From assembly GCA_001604185.1 (NCBI GenBank), contig LVAV01000002.1, forward strand, positions 1 to 64,000: a stretch of 64,000 bases of DNA, read 5' to 3'. The position numbers and the translations under genes are program-made. Source of the stretch: Clostridiales bacterium Firm_16 (GTDB lineage Bacteria; Bacillota; Clostridia; Saccharofermentanales; Saccharofermentanaceae). The stretch's first letter is position 1. Each line of letters starts with the position of its first letter. Shown here piece by piece: positions 57,955 to 64,000 of this stretch. Below the pieces are notes generated by a model. The model had not been told where the DNA came from and did not search any database. It saw only the letters and a list, made by a program, of their open reading frames with translations.

Positions 57955-59628
57955 ATGGTGCTGTTAGATAAATTCAAGGGTTTGACCACGAAGAGTAAGA
58001 TCATTCTTTCGAGTGCGGTCTTGATCGTTATTGCGGCCATAATTGTGCTCTGTTACCTGTTTTTCGGTGGCGGTTACTATGCCACGACCATGAGACTTCT
58101 CCGAGTAGAAGGTACTGTTAATATCGAAGATTCCAAGGGCAATGCGAAGCCTGTAGTCAATAATACCCGTTTCCAGACAGGCGATGCGCTGAACACCGGT
58201 TCCGACGGACTGGCTTCGGTGGGACTGGATGATACCAAGATCGTCACTTTGCAGAATGACAGCCGTGCGGAATTCATCAAGAAGAGAAAGAAACTGGAAC
58301 TTAAGCTCACCAAGGGTGCGCTGTTCTTCGAAGTAATGGAGCACCTGAAGGACGACGAGACTTTCGAGATCAAGACGTCCACCATGACTGCCGGCATCCG
58401 TGGAACTTCCGGATATATTTTCTACGATGATGACGGAAGAGTCGCGCTGGTGGTTACCGATGGCGTGGTCCATGTTGTTGCGAATAACCCGGAAACGAAA
58501 GAAATCAAAGAGACGGACGTGTACGCGGGCCAGAAGGTCAAGGTCTATCTGTATTCGGACAGAGAGACCGATACCGTAGATTTCTTCCTGGAGAGCCTGA
58601 AGGAAGACGAGATCCCGGCATTCTCGCTGAAGATGCTGGCGGATAACAGTGCGCTTCTGGATAAGGTCTGCGCGGATACGGGCTGGAGCAAGGAGAAGAT
58701 CCTTGGACTGGTTTCCGATCTGCTGGATCCGAATCACGGTGGCGAGACCGAACTGACACCTACACCTACGCTTACACCGACGCCGTCGCTTTCTCCGACA
58801 CCTACGGTAACGCCGGAACCGACTCCGACGTTGACGCCTGAGCCTACGACCGAGCCGACGCCTTCGACGACGCCGACTCCGACTTCGAAGAAGGATCCGA
58901 CCCCTACGTCGCAGACGACACCTACACCAACTCCGGAGACAACATCGACACCTACGCCGACCTTGACTCCGACACCTACACCTGCGTCTACTCTGACGCC
59001 AACGCCAACGTTGACCCCGACGCCTACACTGACGTCGACTCCAACACCTACACCGACGTCCACTCCGACACCTACACCGACGTCCACTCCGACGCCTACC
59101 CCGACGTCCACCCCGACGCCTACGCCGACGTCCACCCCGACGCCTACGCCGACGTCCACCCCGACGCCGACACCGACGTCCACTCCAACGCCGACACCGA
59201 CGTCCACACCAACGCCGACACCGACGTCCACACCGACGCCGACACCGACGTCCACTCCGACGCCTACGCCAACGTCGACACCAACGCCTACACCGACGTC
59301 GACCCCGACACCTACACCAACGTCGACACCTACACCAACGTCGACACCTACACCGACATCGACACCTACACCATCAACGTCTCCGACACCGACACCGAAT
59401 CCGATCCCGAACGAGGAGGAGATCCCGGAAGGCTTCGGAGAAAGGATCGAGTGGAACGAAGAGGAACTGGTCTTCATCCTGTGGGGAATGACTGAGGATG
59501 AGGAAGAGATGTACATCGGCTATGTTGACGGAGAGTGGATCGAACTCACCTGTACTGTCGACGAAGACTATACGGAGACATTTACTTATGTCAAGGATGG
59601 GAAGACTATCGTTTATTATGTAAGATAG
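57955..59628 (+). CDS. FecR-domain membrane protein with long Pro/Thr repeat linker
   Basis: 557 residues. One TM helix (about 17-38) then an extracytoplasmic FecR domain (about 48-190: [33 protein letters not shown]... and [21 protein letters not shown]). From about 262 to 480 a Thr/Pro-rich linker contains roughly twelve STPTPTPT octapeptides, and an acidic C-terminal domain of 75 residues ends it ([26 protein letters not shown]). FecR domains usually signal to sigma factors; no sigma gene is here. The cyclase starts 14 bases downstream. GAGGGAAAAG precedes the ATG. Confidence 0.85.
58740..59400 (+). repeat. 24-bp minisatellite within the FecR-domain gene
   Basis: The core 59034-59330 holds about twelve tandem 24-base units coding STPTPTPT, with shorter variants at both ends. 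Units differ mainly at third positions (ACG/ACA/ACC/ACT), so the array is old or under selection for protein. Slippage could change linker length between strains. Confidence 0.85.
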
Positions 59629-59642
59629 CGGGATGAAGGCGG

Positions 59643-61439
59643 ATGAATGAGAGAAACAAGAACCTGTTATTTTCACTGGTGGGCGCCCTGATCGTCACGT
59701 TATTGTGCGGGAAAGGTATGTTCCAGAGCCTGGATATGGGATTTCAGGACTATCTTTTTCAATCCGCGATCTATGTTCCCGGAGATATTTACATTATAGG
59801 TATCACTGACGATGACCTGCGGGAACTGGGCCCGTATAACAGCTGGGACCGGAACGTCATGGCCTCTGCGCTGGAAATGCTGGCTGTAGATCCGCACAGA
59901 CTCCCGGCCGTGGTGGCTGTGGACGGTGTATATTCAGGCAATACCGATCCGGAGTCGGATGCCAGACTGGTCGCCGCTGCAGATAAACTCGGTAATGTGA
60001 TCGCCGCGACCAGTGCCAAGATCGATATCCAGAGAACTTTTGGCAAGAACTCAGTCCTGGTGGACCATTACGCGATACTCAATTACGAAGAACCCTACGA
60101 TGCGTTGAAGGCAGTCACGACCCAGGGACATATCAATGTCATGTACGATGACGACGGTGTACTGCGGCACGGCATACTGTATGTGGAACCTTCGGGACAG
60201 CGCGTATATTCCATCGCTTACGAAGCTGCGAAGATGTATGCCGAGAAGAACGGTATGACGATCACTGAACCACCGGTGAATTCCCGAGGTCAGTACTTCG
60301 TTTCTTTCTCCGCCAGACCGGACGGTTTCTATGACGGTGCTTCGCTTAATCAGTTGATCAAGGGGGAGATCGACCCTTCCTGCTATGCCGGGAAACTGGT
60401 TCTCATCGGGCCTTATGCAGTAGGATTGGCAGATGCCTATACCACGGCCATCGCTCACTCGGTCATGATGCAGGGCGTCGAATTCCACGCTAATGTGATC
60501 CAGCAGATCCTCGACGGAAACTACAAGCGGGAAGTGCCGGATTTCGTGCAGCTCCTGGTCACGGGTCTGGTTTCTTTCGCCTTTTTCTTTTTCTGCAATA
60601 ACCGGCGTCTTCTGATCTCGGTACCACTGCTGGTGGTCTTTGAAGGACTGAGCATCGTCGGATCCCTGATGCTTTATTCTTCCGGATGGATCACCCATGC
60701 GCTGTGGATCCCGGCGAGTGTTTTCCTGCTGTTTATCGTTGCGGTAGCTACGAATTATATCCGCGCATCTATTGCAAGACAGAATGTCACGAAGACTTTC
60801 GAGAGATATGTAGCGCCGAATATCGTCGGCGAGATCCTGAAGGAAGGAACAGACAGCCTGAAACTGGGAGGCAAACTCTGTGATATCGCTGTGCTCTTCG
60901 TGGATATCCGCGGATTCACCACGATGTCTGAGCGATTGTCTCCGGAGGAAGTCGTGCATATCCTGAATCAGTACCTTTCCATGACCAGTACCTGTATCGA
61001 GAATAATAAGGGTACACTGGATAAATTCGTAGGAGACGCGACCATGGCATTCTGGGGCGCACCGCTTCCGGAGGAAGACTCGGTGTACCTGGCGGCCAAG
61101 ACGGCTCTGGATATCGTCGAAGGCGCGAAGGCCCTGTCGGCGAAACTGAAAGAAGAGATCAACGAGGAACTTAACGTCGGTGTCGGAATCCACTATGGTC
61201 CGGCGGTTGTCGGCAACATGGGATCCCTGAAACATATGGACTACACGGCCATCGGAGATACGGTCAACACCGCGGCAAGACTGGAGTCCAACGCTCCCGG
61301 CGGCACGGTCTATATCAGCCGCGCCGTGGCTGAAGAGCTGAAGGGACGTATGCGATTCACCTCTCTCGGTGACTCCATCAAGCTGAAGGGCAAGGCCGAC
61401 GGATTTGAAGTGCTCAAGCTGGAAGGCAAGGAGGAATAA
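59643..61439 (+). CDS. CHASE2-domain adenylate cyclase (class III)
   Basis: 598 residues. First TM (about 8-25), then an extracytoplasmic CHASE2 sensor (about 35-300), three TM helices (302-380) and a class III cyclase domain. Catalytic residues are present: metal Asp in VLFVDIRGFTT (about 419) and KFVGDATMAF (about 463), and AIGDTVNTAARLE with Asn/Arg. The adenine-selecting pair is Lys (LDKFVGD) and Asp (IGDTVN), so ATP is the likely substrate. cAMP synthesis is unusual in Clostridia. It is coupled to the MBL-GAF-GGDEF gene by a 3-base gap. Confidence 0.9.
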   Translation: MNERNKNLLFSLVGALIVTLLCGKGMFQSLDMGFQDYLFQSAIYVPGDIYIIGITDDDLRELGPYNSWDRNVMASALEMLAVDPHRLPAVVAVDGVYSGNTDPESDARLVAAADKLGNVIAATSAKIDIQRTFGKNSVLVDHYAILNYEEPYDALKAVTTQGHINVMYDDDGVLRHGILYVEPSGQRVYSIAYEAAKMYAEKNGMTITEPPVNSRGQYFVSFSARPDGFYDGASLNQLIKGEIDPSCYAGKLVLIGPYAVGLADAYTTAIAHSVMMQGVEFHANVIQQILDGNYKREVPDFVQLLVTGLVSFAFFFFCNNRRLLISVPLLVVFEGLSIVGSLMLYSSGWITHALWIPASVFLLFIVAVATNYIRASIARQNVTKTFERYVAPNIVGEILKEGTDSLKLGGKLCDIAVLFVDIRGFTTMSERLSPEEVVHILNQYLSMTSTCIENNKGTLDKFVGDATMAFWGAPLPEEDSVYLAAKTALDIVEGAKALSAKLKEEINEELNVGVGIHYGPAVVGNMGSLKHMDYTAIGDTVNTAARLESNAPGGTVYISRAVAEELKGRMRFTSLGDSIKLKGKADGFEVLKLEGKEE

Positions 61440-61442
61440 AAC

Positions 61443-63149
61443 ATGCTTCGTTTTCTGGGAAGAGGTTCTGCTTTCGCCCAAGAACATAACAGTGCATATT
61501 TTGAAGCGGACAACGAGTTGGTCCTGATCGACTGCCCCATGAGTTCTTTTGCCAAGTTAAAGGCAAAAGCTCTCGCCTCATTTAGTCATGTCTATGTTCT
61601 GATCACCCACACCCATGGGGATCACAGTGGCGGCATCGGGATGCTCATCGATTATATCTTCTTCGTCGTTAAGGTCCGGGTCACCATTGTGGCGCCGTCC
61701 AAAGAAGTCTGCGACGATCTTCGGTATTTTCTGAAGAATATAGAAGGATGCAACGATGCCTGGTATGAACTGGTCGAAGCAAAGGATCTGGACAAGCCGT
61801 GGCTCTCGGAGGTGATCCCGACCACGCATACCGAAGAACTGGCCGGCAAATGCTTCGGATATTCCTTGCAGATCGAGGACCGGAAGGTGATCTACACCGG
61901 TGATACCAACACCATGGAGCCTTTCGAGAAACATCTCACGGAGGGGACGGCCCTCTATATGGAGATCGCATCCATGAAGACCGACGTGCATCTCTTCTGC
62001 GAAGAGGTGCGGGAGAAAGTCATAGATTACGTGGCAAAGGGCGTGCAGGTTTTCCTCATGCATATGGATAACGAAGAGAAGATAGAAGCAATCATGAAAG
62101 GAACCGGAGCCGTGAAGGCGCCGCTGGATGAGGTGGATATGGAAGACAATGGAAAAATGCTGAACGACATTTTCGGAATCACGGACAGTCTTTATAAGGA
62201 TATGTGCATGAGCGACCACAAGGACCATGCACTGCTTTTCTCCTATCTGACCGAGCTTGCCAAGATCATCGTCAACGCGGACCGGGCCAGCTTCTGGAAG
62301 TGGGATAAGAGAAAGGGCGAACTCTGGACGATGTCCGCCACAGGAGTGGATAAGATCGTCATCCCGGACAGCACCGGTCTGGTGGGCAAGTCCTTGAGAA
62401 ACCGAAAGACCGTGATCACCAACGATCCCTATTCCGATCCGGACTTTAACCGTGAGGTCGATAAGAAGACCGGTTATGTGACCAAATCGGTCCTGGTGCT
62501 GCCGGTAGCAGATATTAACGGAAGTTTTATCGGAGCCCTGCAGCTGGTGAACAAGAACGATGATAAGGGTTTCGATGAAGTGGAAGATACCCGTAAGCTG
62601 TCCCTGGCCGCGCTGGTATGCGGTATTGCGCTGGAGTCGGAGACTTTCCTGGAAGAATCGCATCACGATAAGCTCACGGGACTGAAGAACAGAATGGGTT
62701 TCTATTTCGACTTCGGAGGCAAGTTCAAGGAATATCTTATTCCGGATTCCGGAAAAACCATGTCGGTCTTCATCTGCGATATCGATAAGTTTAAGCGCGT
62801 CAACGATACCTACGGCCATAACGCAGGAGACGACGTTCTGGCGTTCGCATCCCATCTCATTGAGTCAGCCTGTGGCGAGAAGGACAGCGTCTACAGATGG
62901 GGCGGAGAGGAGTTCGTTATGGTCATGCGGGATACAGATCTGGCCGGTGCCGCGGAGAAGGCGGAAGCCGTTCGGGTCAAGCTTATGGAATCCGATATCG
63001 ATGCAGACGGCACCATTATCCGCTGTACGATGAGCTTCGGCTGTGCACTCTTCGATCCGGAGAAGACCATCGAGGAGAATATCAGTATCGCGGACGGCCG
63101 GCTCTATACAGCCAAGGAGACAGGAAGAAACCGAGTCTGCTTCTCGTAA
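61443..63149 (+). CDS. Metallo-beta-lactamase fold - GAF - GGDEF fusion protein
   Basis: 568 residues. The N-terminal 225 residues are an RNase Z-like MBL domain: HTHGDHSGG (56-64), THTEE, YTGDTNT and LMHMD supply the metal ligands. A GAF domain (about 255-405) follows, and a GGDEF domain ends it: HHDKLTGLKNR, CDIDKFKRVNDTYGHNAGDD and GGEEF near 488 (an active variant). It should make c-di-GMP and hydrolyse a phosphoester or ester; MBL phosphodiesterases include cAMP-degrading types, which would suit the neighbouring cyclase. GGAGGAATAAAAC precedes the ATG. Confidence 0.9.
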   Translation: MLRFLGRGSAFAQEHNSAYFEADNELVLIDCPMSSFAKLKAKALASFSHVYVLITHTHGDHSGGIGMLIDYIFFVVKVRVTIVAPSKEVCDDLRYFLKNIEGCNDAWYELVEAKDLDKPWLSEVIPTTHTEELAGKCFGYSLQIEDRKVIYTGDTNTMEPFEKHLTEGTALYMEIASMKTDVHLFCEEVREKVIDYVAKGVQVFLMHMDNEEKIEAIMKGTGAVKAPLDEVDMEDNGKMLNDIFGITDSLYKDMCMSDHKDHALLFSYLTELAKIIVNADRASFWKWDKRKGELWTMSATGVDKIVIPDSTGLVGKSLRNRKTVITNDPYSDPDFNREVDKKTGYVTKSVLVLPVADINGSFIGALQLVNKNDDKGFDEVEDTRKLSLAALVCGIALESETFLEESHHDKLTGLKNRMGFYFDFGGKFKEYLIPDSGKTMSVFICDIDKFKRVNDTYGHNAGDDVLAFASHLIESACGEKDSVYRWGGEEFVMVMRDTDLAGAAEKAEAVRVKLMESDIDADGTIIRCTMSFGCALFDPEKTIEENISIADGRLYTAKETGRNRVCFS

Positions 63150-63263: not shown

Positions 63264-64000
63264 ATGCTTGACAGTGCGAAGATCGGACGCTTTATCGTGG
63301 AGAAGAGAAAGAGGCTCGGCCTGACCCAGCAGCAGCTTGCCGACAGACTGAATGTGTCTTTTCAGGCGGTGTCGAAGTGGGAGAACGGCACAACGTTTCC
63401 GAATATCGAGATCCTGAAGGATCTGGCCACCGTGCTGGATGTGTCGGTGGATGAGATACTGGCAGGCAGCGAGAAAGAGGCAGACGGCCTTTCTTACAGC
63501 AAGGCCGGAATCGATATTACCTATACAGATACCATCAAGAAGGAAATGGCGAAGAGCCTGGAGACGAAGGACCGTCGTGTGCTGAACGGTCTGGGACCTT
63601 TTGCTTCCTTATACGATATTAAATTCCCGGAGATCCAGGATCCGGTCCTGGTCCTGAAATCAGAAGAACCTGGTTCCAAGCAGAAACTGGCTATGGAGTA
63701 CGGTTACACGGAATCCATCTGCCATGACATGATCAACCACCTGGTGAACGATATTGTAGTCATGGGTGCAAAACCTCTGGCGGTGCTTGATACTATCGTC
63801 TGCGGTAACGCGGAGAAAGATACCATCAAGACGCTGGTAAAGGGAGTATCGGATGCCTGCCGTGAGAATGAGTGCTCTCTGGTAGGCGGCGAGACCTCCA
63901 TCCAGCCGCTGGTGGTGGATTCCGGTGTCTATGTCCTGACATCCAGTATTGCCGGTATCGTGGAAAGATCGAAGGTCATCGATGGATCCGCGATCCGGGA
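63264..64000 (+). CDS. XRE helix-turn-helix fused to AIR-synthase (PurM)-like domain (partial)
   Basis: The frame runs to the window edge (245 codons seen). Residues 1-70 are a Cro/C1-type HTH: KIGRFIVEKRKRLGLTQQQLADRLNVSFQAVSKWENG. From about 75 on it aligns with AIR synthase/PurM N-domains: SYSKAGIDITYTDTIKKEM, NHLVNDIVVMGAKPLAVLDTI, VKGVSDACRENECSLVGGETS. The ATP-loop DGVGTK is replaced by EEPGSK, so enzyme activity may be lost, and it may act as a ligand-sensing regulator. CGGAGG precedes the ATG. Confidence 0.85.
   Translation, partial: MLDSAKIGRFIVEKRKRLGLTQQQLADRLNVSFQAVSKWENGTTFPNIEILKDLATVLDVSVDEILAGSEKEADGLSYSKAGIDITYTDTIKKEMAKSLETKDRRVLNGLGPFASLYDIKFPEIQDPVLVLKSEEPGSKQKLAMEYGYTESICHDMINHLVNDIVVMGAKPLAVLDTIVCGNAEKDTIKTLVKGVSDACRENECSLVGGETSIQPLVVDSGVYVLTSSIAGIVERSKVIDGSAIR

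Follow-up and report, generated by a model that had tools for sequence, protein, structure and literature searches.

The stretch of DNA analysed here, which we call the window, comprises positions 1 to 64,000 of the forward strand of contig LVAV01000002.1 of Clostridiales bacterium Firm_16, a member of the family Saccharofermentanaceae. Near its end it carries three consecutive genes, all on the plus strand, encoding a FecR-domain membrane protein, a CHASE2 class III adenylate cyclase, and a fusion of an MBL-fold domain, a GAF domain and a GGDEF diguanylate cyclase (Table 1). The gap between the first two genes is 14 nucleotides and that between the cyclase and the MBL-GAF-GGDEF gene is 3 nucleotides. 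These three genes are conserved as a unit, and we think it probable that they form one relay from cyclic AMP (cAMP) to cyclic di-GMP (c-di-GMP). The row of genes and the two gaps given in the initial annotation agree with the open reading frames (ORFs) and with Pfam, and the catalytic motifs of both cyclases and the MBL ligands, which it had called intact, are not only intact in the window but are also kept across relatives. In Pfam searches the FecR domain scored 48.6 bits (cut-off 24), the CHASE2 and Guanylate_cyc domains of the cyclase were both above cut-off, and in the third protein Lactamase_B_2 scored 42.1 bits, GGDEF 126.9 bits and GAF_2 27.9 bits, the last being slightly below its cut-off of 28.6. 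Hydropathy predicts a single transmembrane segment in the FecR protein (residues 16-34), and in the cyclase one N-terminal segment and about three more ahead of the catalytic domain. No extracytoplasmic sensor domain is present in the GGDEF protein.

Table 1. Features of the three-gene unit, in window coordinates
Feature	Coordinates	Strand	Details or basis
FecR-domain membrane protein, 557 residues	57955..59628	+	N-terminal transmembrane segment, FecR domain, Thr/Pro repeat tail
FecR domain within the first gene	58186..58470	+	Pfam
24-bp tandem repeat, about 16 copies, encoding the Thr/Pro-rich tail of the FecR protein	58946..59324	+	
CHASE2 class III adenylate cyclase, 598 residues	59643..61439	+	PF05226 125 bits, PF00211 97.9 bits
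CHASE2 extracytoplasmic sensor domain, residues 16-305	59688..60557	+	Pfam
Class III cyclase catalytic domain	60882..61397	+	Pfam, kept residues
AAGGAGG ribosome-binding site of the MBL-GAF-GGDEF gene, just ahead of the cyclase stop	61428..61434	+	Sequence
MBL-GAF-GGDEF fusion protein, 568 residues	61443..63149	+	ORF, Pfam
MBL-fold metallohydrolase domain, possible cyclic-nucleotide phosphodiesterase	61443..62132	+	Profile and fold comparison
GAF domain, cyclic-nucleotide-binding type	62193..62642	+	PDB profile comparison
GGDEF diguanylate cyclase domain, RWGGEEF motif, without RxxD I-site	62658..63134	+	

The CHASE2 cyclase is the sole PF00211 match in its own genome. No TPR match was found in the eight proteins scanned with Pfam, which were the three unit proteins and five neighbours. 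Just past the unit (window 63264-64000; whole ORF L056:13265-14515) there is an odd fusion of 416 residues that joins an XRE-type helix-turn-helix to a PurM/AIR-synthase-like domain.

Co-occurrence of the three genes in relatives had been named beforehand as a test; it was examined in three sets and was borne out. In the first, 59 whole genomes consisting of the own genome and relatives, full-length relatives of the MBL-GAF-GGDEF protein were present in 22; the two halves of the protein were matched separately in G012, and a stop codon lies between them in G001. CHASE2 was confined to the identical 22 genomes, the remaining 37 being without it, and PF00211 cyclases followed the same pattern. 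The cyclase and MBL-GAF-GGDEF genes are adjacent in 21 of the 22 carriers, the exception being G016, where they lie on two contigs, the cyclase piece on C194 reaching the contig end and the piece on C134 ending after 402 residues. A FecR homologue ends at most 60 nucleotides from the cyclase start in 20 of the 22 carriers (as two ORFs in G011 and as the last of a row of three in G027). No such homologue turned up at the G005 locus or at the G001 locus, for which 1.5 kb of upstream sequence is present. The second set was family-wide and comprised 115 genomes, in which an MBL-GAF match was counted at E 1e-30 and a cyclase as a PF00211 match. The former was present in 85 genomes and the latter in 87; 83 genomes had both, 26 had neither, four had the cyclase only (G453, G459, G487 and G522) and two had MBL-GAF only, namely G503, with a piece at a contig end, and G524, with the MBL part only (Fisher P 2e-19, uncorrected for relatedness). 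The third set consisted of the best 80 of 217 relatives from a genome-contig search with the MBL-GAF alignment, some of whose stretches end at contig ends. These relatives are mostly metagenome-assembled genomes, many from rumen or gut, with a few isolates, and they are labelled Clostridiales, Saccharofermentans, Ruminococcaceae or Lachnospiraceae. In L133 (Ruminococcaceae bacterium AB4001) and L139 (YAD3003) the three genes directly follow one another. In 72 of the 80 the fetched stretch contains a class III cyclase, whose end lies -38 to +87 nucleotides from the MBL gene start in 66, and in 58 of the 80 it contains a FecR homologue. In both this set and the 22 carriers FecR is found less regularly than the other two genes.

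Some loci depart from the usual layout. One gene separates the cyclase from the MBL gene in L140 and L146; the cyclase is on the opposite strand in L192, L193 and L195, the first two being convergent; and in L182 a HAMP cyclase of 950 residues lies directly downstream. Eight of the 80 relatives have no cyclase in the stretch, two of which (L125 and L161) retain FecR, and a PF00211 cyclase was found elsewhere in all eight of these genomes and also in four further tested genomes (12/12). The MBL and GAF domains lie in separate neighbouring ORFs in seven of the 80 (L127, which is the G001 locus, L181, L182, L188, L189, L190 and L192) and likewise in G012, G500 and G508. In two genomes of the genus (L062:3338-5050 and L078:44-1758) the MBL and GAF-GGDEF ORFs were seen to be split by a stop with a restart a few bases on. 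Five flanking window genes that were tested matched none of the other 25 stretches, which reach a few kb to either side. These data bear on the explanation that the co-occurrence is mere inheritance of an old operon whose genes are not functionally coupled, an explanation that would suit the confinement of all family carriers to two genera and counts that are uncorrected for phylogeny. We consider it very unlikely because the flanking genes are unshared, because convergent, downstream and unlinked arrangements still keep both partners, and because in other families CHASE2 cyclases pair with c-di-GMP enzymes of the HD-GYP type, as described below. Co-occurrence, unshared flanks, rearranged loci and this pairing together support the view that cAMP and c-di-GMP are functionally linked.

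Both cyclases of the unit have kept their catalytic residues. In the adenylate cyclase D421, K461, D465, T535, N542 and R546 are kept wherever the alignment of the 72 loci has a letter (71 or 72 of them); K461 and T535 are presumably the adenine-specifying pair, and the others we take to be the two metal-binding aspartates and the transition-state asparagine and arginine. Among 22 cyclases (21 unit cyclases, G016 being omitted, and the second cyclase of G005) 47% of the columns are invariant in the catalytic domain and 15% in CHASE2. In the GGDEF domain G487, G488 and E489 are present in all 78 relatives with letters and E490 and F491 in 76 of 78. This domain lacks the canonical inhibitory I-site (RxxD), and there is an arginine at that position in only 3 of 80 aligned relatives.

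The GAF domain of the third protein is, by sequence comparison, of the cyclic-nucleotide-binding type. When a profile of 20 GAF domains was searched against the PDB at E up to 1, all 20 distinct matches were to PmGH, CyaB2, the phosphodiesterases PDE2/5/6/10 and 5w10, with E-values of 1.9e-32 for PmGH (4mcw), 5.5e-29 for CyaB2 (1ykd), 3.9e-19 for PDE10A GAF-B (2zmf) and 2.3e-10 for 5w10, which is described as the structure of the Lcd1 GAF (PMC11800159). The single window GAF sequence gave the same 20 matches and two Nlh1 GAFs at E 0.3, and one control GAF from a relative matched methionine-sulfoxide-reductase-type GAFs instead. The cAMP contacts of CyaB2 are described as including R291, T293, I308, T309, D356 and N359 (PMC4411481), and in the alignment these map to R281, S283, S298, A299, D340 and T343 of the window protein. 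In relatives with letters R281 and S283 are kept in 79/79, D340 in 80/80 and A299 in 78/79, and T343 is kept in 78/80, the other two having serine. R281, S283, D340 and T343 are counted as four retained cAMP-contact positions, S replacing T and T replacing N. As regards the NKFDE motif, N, K and D are kept in 80/80 relatives and F in 77/80. Among the 22 proteins of the unit, two of which were each assembled from a pair of ORFs, the invariant columns amount to 49% in GAF, 46% in GGDEF and 20% in MBL, and thus GAF is as conserved as the catalytic domains. That GAF is held as an enzyme is held while CHASE2 drifts fits a fixed internal ligand. When 13 genomes were searched with the GAF_2 model alone, the fusion was the only match in each of seven carriers and no match was found in two non-carriers of the genus. 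It could be supposed that one outside signal drives both syntheses in parallel through protein contact and that GAF binds something else or merely dimerises. The constant gene order, the tight spacing and the extracytoplasmic FecR and CHASE2 domains would be in keeping with this, but the nearly invariant pocket residues of a cyclic-nucleotide-type GAF speak against it, as do the eight relatives in which the cyclase is missing from the stretch and present elsewhere in the genome, and we regard such parallel outputs as unlikely.

In a class-wide sample of 391 Clostridia genomes a PF00211 match was found in 36, of which 33 were above the curated cut-off, and a full MBL-GAF match (E 1e-40) was found in six, all Saccharofermentanaceae. 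The initial annotation held that cAMP signalling is rare in Clostridia, and this is roughly the case across the class but not within the Saccharofermentanaceae, where 87 of the 115 genomes carry a PF00211 match. Outside the family 11 fetched cyclase loci from 11 genomes carry CHASE2, and eight of these have a c-di-GMP enzyme no more than about 5 kb away. In seven of the 11 stretches this is an HD-GYP enzyme, compared to 0.35 expected from the per-genome HD-GYP counts (P 6e-9); counted by family the pairing is 5/6 (P 1.5e-6). Six of the seven are GAF-HD-GYP proteins, five of them by Pfam (G225, G409, G266, G127 and G244) and that of G094 called from a GAF-profile score of 28 bits and an HD_5 match, and one is without GAF (G373). 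Neither an HD-GYP nor a GGDEF partner was found in the G328, G154 and G322 stretches, and a protein in G328, judged by its first residues, resembles a protein that binds cyclic nucleotide monophosphates (cNMPs). The GAFs of L248 and L242, both GAF-HD-GYP proteins, and of L257, a GAF histidine kinase next to another type of cyclase, match CyaB2 and phosphodiesterases.

Two further arrangements were seen in the course of this survey. In other Clostridia, class III cyclases of about 800-1180 residues have GAF-HisKA_3 histidine kinases as neighbours (L244, L250, L253 and L257), and L251, L252 and L258, the last of which ends at a contig end, share this arrangement by likeness; the GAF of L257, the only histidine-kinase GAF examined, matches CyaB2 and PDE5. 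The own genome encodes at L106:871-1779 (G000:C22) a 302-residue protein in which Pfam recognises two cNMP-binding domains and nothing else. Judged by eye among the matches listed, such tandem cNMP-binding proteins are present in at least 19 of the 22 carriers and in none of the 37 other genomes, and among the same matches they lie near a second class III cyclase in G001, G008, G016 and G027.

The probable explanation for the unit is thus a relay that runs from an outside sensor through cAMP and a GAF receptor to c-di-GMP, with the MBL domain as a cAMP brake. It builds on the gene order, the domains, the intact catalytic residues, the conservation, the co-occurrence and the type of the GAF, all of which are observed directly. 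The FecR protein and CHASE2 would face outside and sense a signal, possibly from the surface or the cell wall, and this signal would determine how much cAMP the class III cyclase makes. This cAMP, the presumed ligand of the GAF, would bind the third protein and switch its GGDEF domain, making c-di-GMP track cAMP, and by analogy with Lcd1 the effect would be activation. The GGDEF domain would make c-di-GMP free of product inhibition through an I-site, and the MBL domain, if its substrate is cAMP, would hydrolyse it and limit the signal in time and space. The initial annotation had supposed that one signal sets both messengers. The functional link between the two that this implies is upheld by the co-occurrence and by the rearranged loci; the parallel setting is not, as the anatomy of the proteins favours a series, in which cAMP is the likelier input because the GGDEF protein has no outside sensor but has a cNMP-type GAF and a phosphodiesterase-like MBL domain.

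Several observations weigh against this relay. The profile comparison that gives the GAF type was set against a single control GAF, and for PmGH, the top match, we know of no cNMP ligand. Position 298, which corresponds to I308 of CyaB2, is S, A, T or L in relatives, the final E of NKFDE is not kept, and the spacing from F to D is one residue longer. Six of the 115 family genomes are discordant, and the co-occurrence count includes no phylogenetic correction. Outside the family, the G431 GAF-GGDEF gene has no MBL domain and is divergent from its CHASE2 cyclase. The tandem cNMP-binding proteins suggest further candidate receptors of cAMP in the same genomes. The remaining points concern the brake: the MBL domain scored 20.9 bits with the Apyc1 model PF23023, below the curated cut-off of 50, the 232-residue domain gave no match at E 0.01 to NF041851, the NCBIfam cyclic-nucleotide phosphodiesterase model, and stand-alone MBL relatives occur in G107, G231 and G432, all of which are without a PF00211 match.

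The seven metal ligands of the MBL domain (H56, H58, D60, H61, H129, D154 and H207) are kept in 80/80 relatives, and thus the HxHxDH motif and the further metal ligands of the class II (MBL) cyclic-nucleotide phosphodiesterases are present. The MBL profile matched 7fct in the PDB at 4.4e-30, followed by the Apyc1 structures 7t28, 7u2s and 7u2r, and for the predicted model of the domain (pLDDT 91.6) the best folds were 7fct (MBLBt2), Apyc1, the Bacillus anthracis ELAC homologue 1zkp, YhfI and RNase Z (query TM-scores roughly 0.65-0.77). Apyc1 is described as cleaving many cNMPs and YhfI as preferring cAMP and cGMP (PMC9117128). Near the CHASE2 cyclases of G225, G409 and G322 there are MBL genes within about 4 kb that are of another kind, unmatched by the profile of the unit's MBL at E 1e-4, and the protein of G225 is nearest to YhfI in the PDB. 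Among the stand-alone relatives (L235:5664-6356, L236:5585-6226 and L237:5744-6406) two outscore the MBL of the fusion on the Apyc1 model, with 23.4 and 25.1 bits, and that in G107 does match the NCBIfam phosphodiesterase model (24.4 bits, cut 400). The MBL family thus has uses outside class III cyclase circuits, and because these relatives occur in genomes without PF00211, cAMP as the substrate is a proposal. It may be that GAF is a receptor of cAMP (or cGMP) for the GGDEF domain while MBL acts on something else, such as a breakdown product of c-di-GMP, another cyclic nucleotide or an RNA end. Since MBL is the least conserved of the three domains, RNase Z is among the near folds and the stand-alone proteins are found apart from PF00211, we rate this as a serious possibility, somewhat short of even, set against which are the cNMP phosphodiesterases among the top folds and the different MBL proteins near CHASE2 cyclases elsewhere.

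If the relay with its cAMP brake is taken further, the third protein could be a self-resetting transducer in which GAF reads cAMP, MBL destroys it and GGDEF writes c-di-GMP. In a broader view, the usual partner of a CHASE2 cyclase in Clostridia would be an enzyme of c-di-GMP turnover that carries a cAMP-type GAF and, depending on the lineage, synthesises c-di-GMP (GGDEF) or degrades it (HD-GYP), a convergent cAMP-to-c-di-GMP circuit in place of cAMP-CRP. We put this forward tentatively and with less confidence than the relay itself. To our knowledge cAMP has no settled role in Clostridia. Since the unit names where cAMP comes from, what probably receives it, what may act as a brake and what the output is, three proteins are enough to test the question. 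Through the relay a single operon of rumen and gut bacteria would connect two global messengers, and it would supply a protein in which hydrolase, receptor and cyclase are fused.

What was already known are cAMP-gated c-di-GMP enzymes and clusters of FecR, CHASE2 and phosphodiesterase genes; no description of MBL-GAF-GGDEF proteins or of such an operon was found in the open-licence literature searched. In Campylobacterota there are clusters of FecR, a CHASE2 cyclase, a putative cAMP phosphodiesterase and TPR (PMC9239204). They resemble the unit in that a FecR-domain protein and a CHASE2 cyclase stand alongside a putative cAMP phosphodiesterase, whereas the unit has no TPR gene and its phosphodiesterase-like domain is fused to GAF-GGDEF, which brings in c-di-GMP. 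The CHASE2 cyclases CyaD1, CyaD2 and CyaK of S. meliloti work with NsrA (PMC13001267) and thus likewise respond through a surface partner, but the output of that system is the CRP-family regulator Clr and its partner is an outer-membrane barrel. Apyc1 and YhfI, which are class II MBL phosphodiesterases, share with the MBL domain the fold, the HxHxDH motif and the further ligands, and are among its best folds after 7fct; unlike it they are free enzymes, while the domain here is fused, lies below the cut-off of the Apyc1 model and has a putative substrate. CyaB2 of Anabaena has the same type of GAF and the same adenine-contact positions, but its GAF regulates a cAMP cyclase and not a diguanylate cyclase, and the position of I308 is small here. 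Lcd1, Tlr0485 and Bd1971 are known cAMP-gated c-di-GMP enzymes, Lcd1 of Leptospira interrogans being a cAMP-dependent GAF-GGDEF and Tlr0485 of Thermosynechococcus a cAMP-activated GAF-HD-GYP (PMC8846402). As in Lcd1 and Tlr0485, a cNMP-type GAF is joined here to a c-di-GMP enzyme, and the unit differs from them in adding a fused MBL hydrolase and, in the same operon, a CHASE2 cyclase and a FecR protein.

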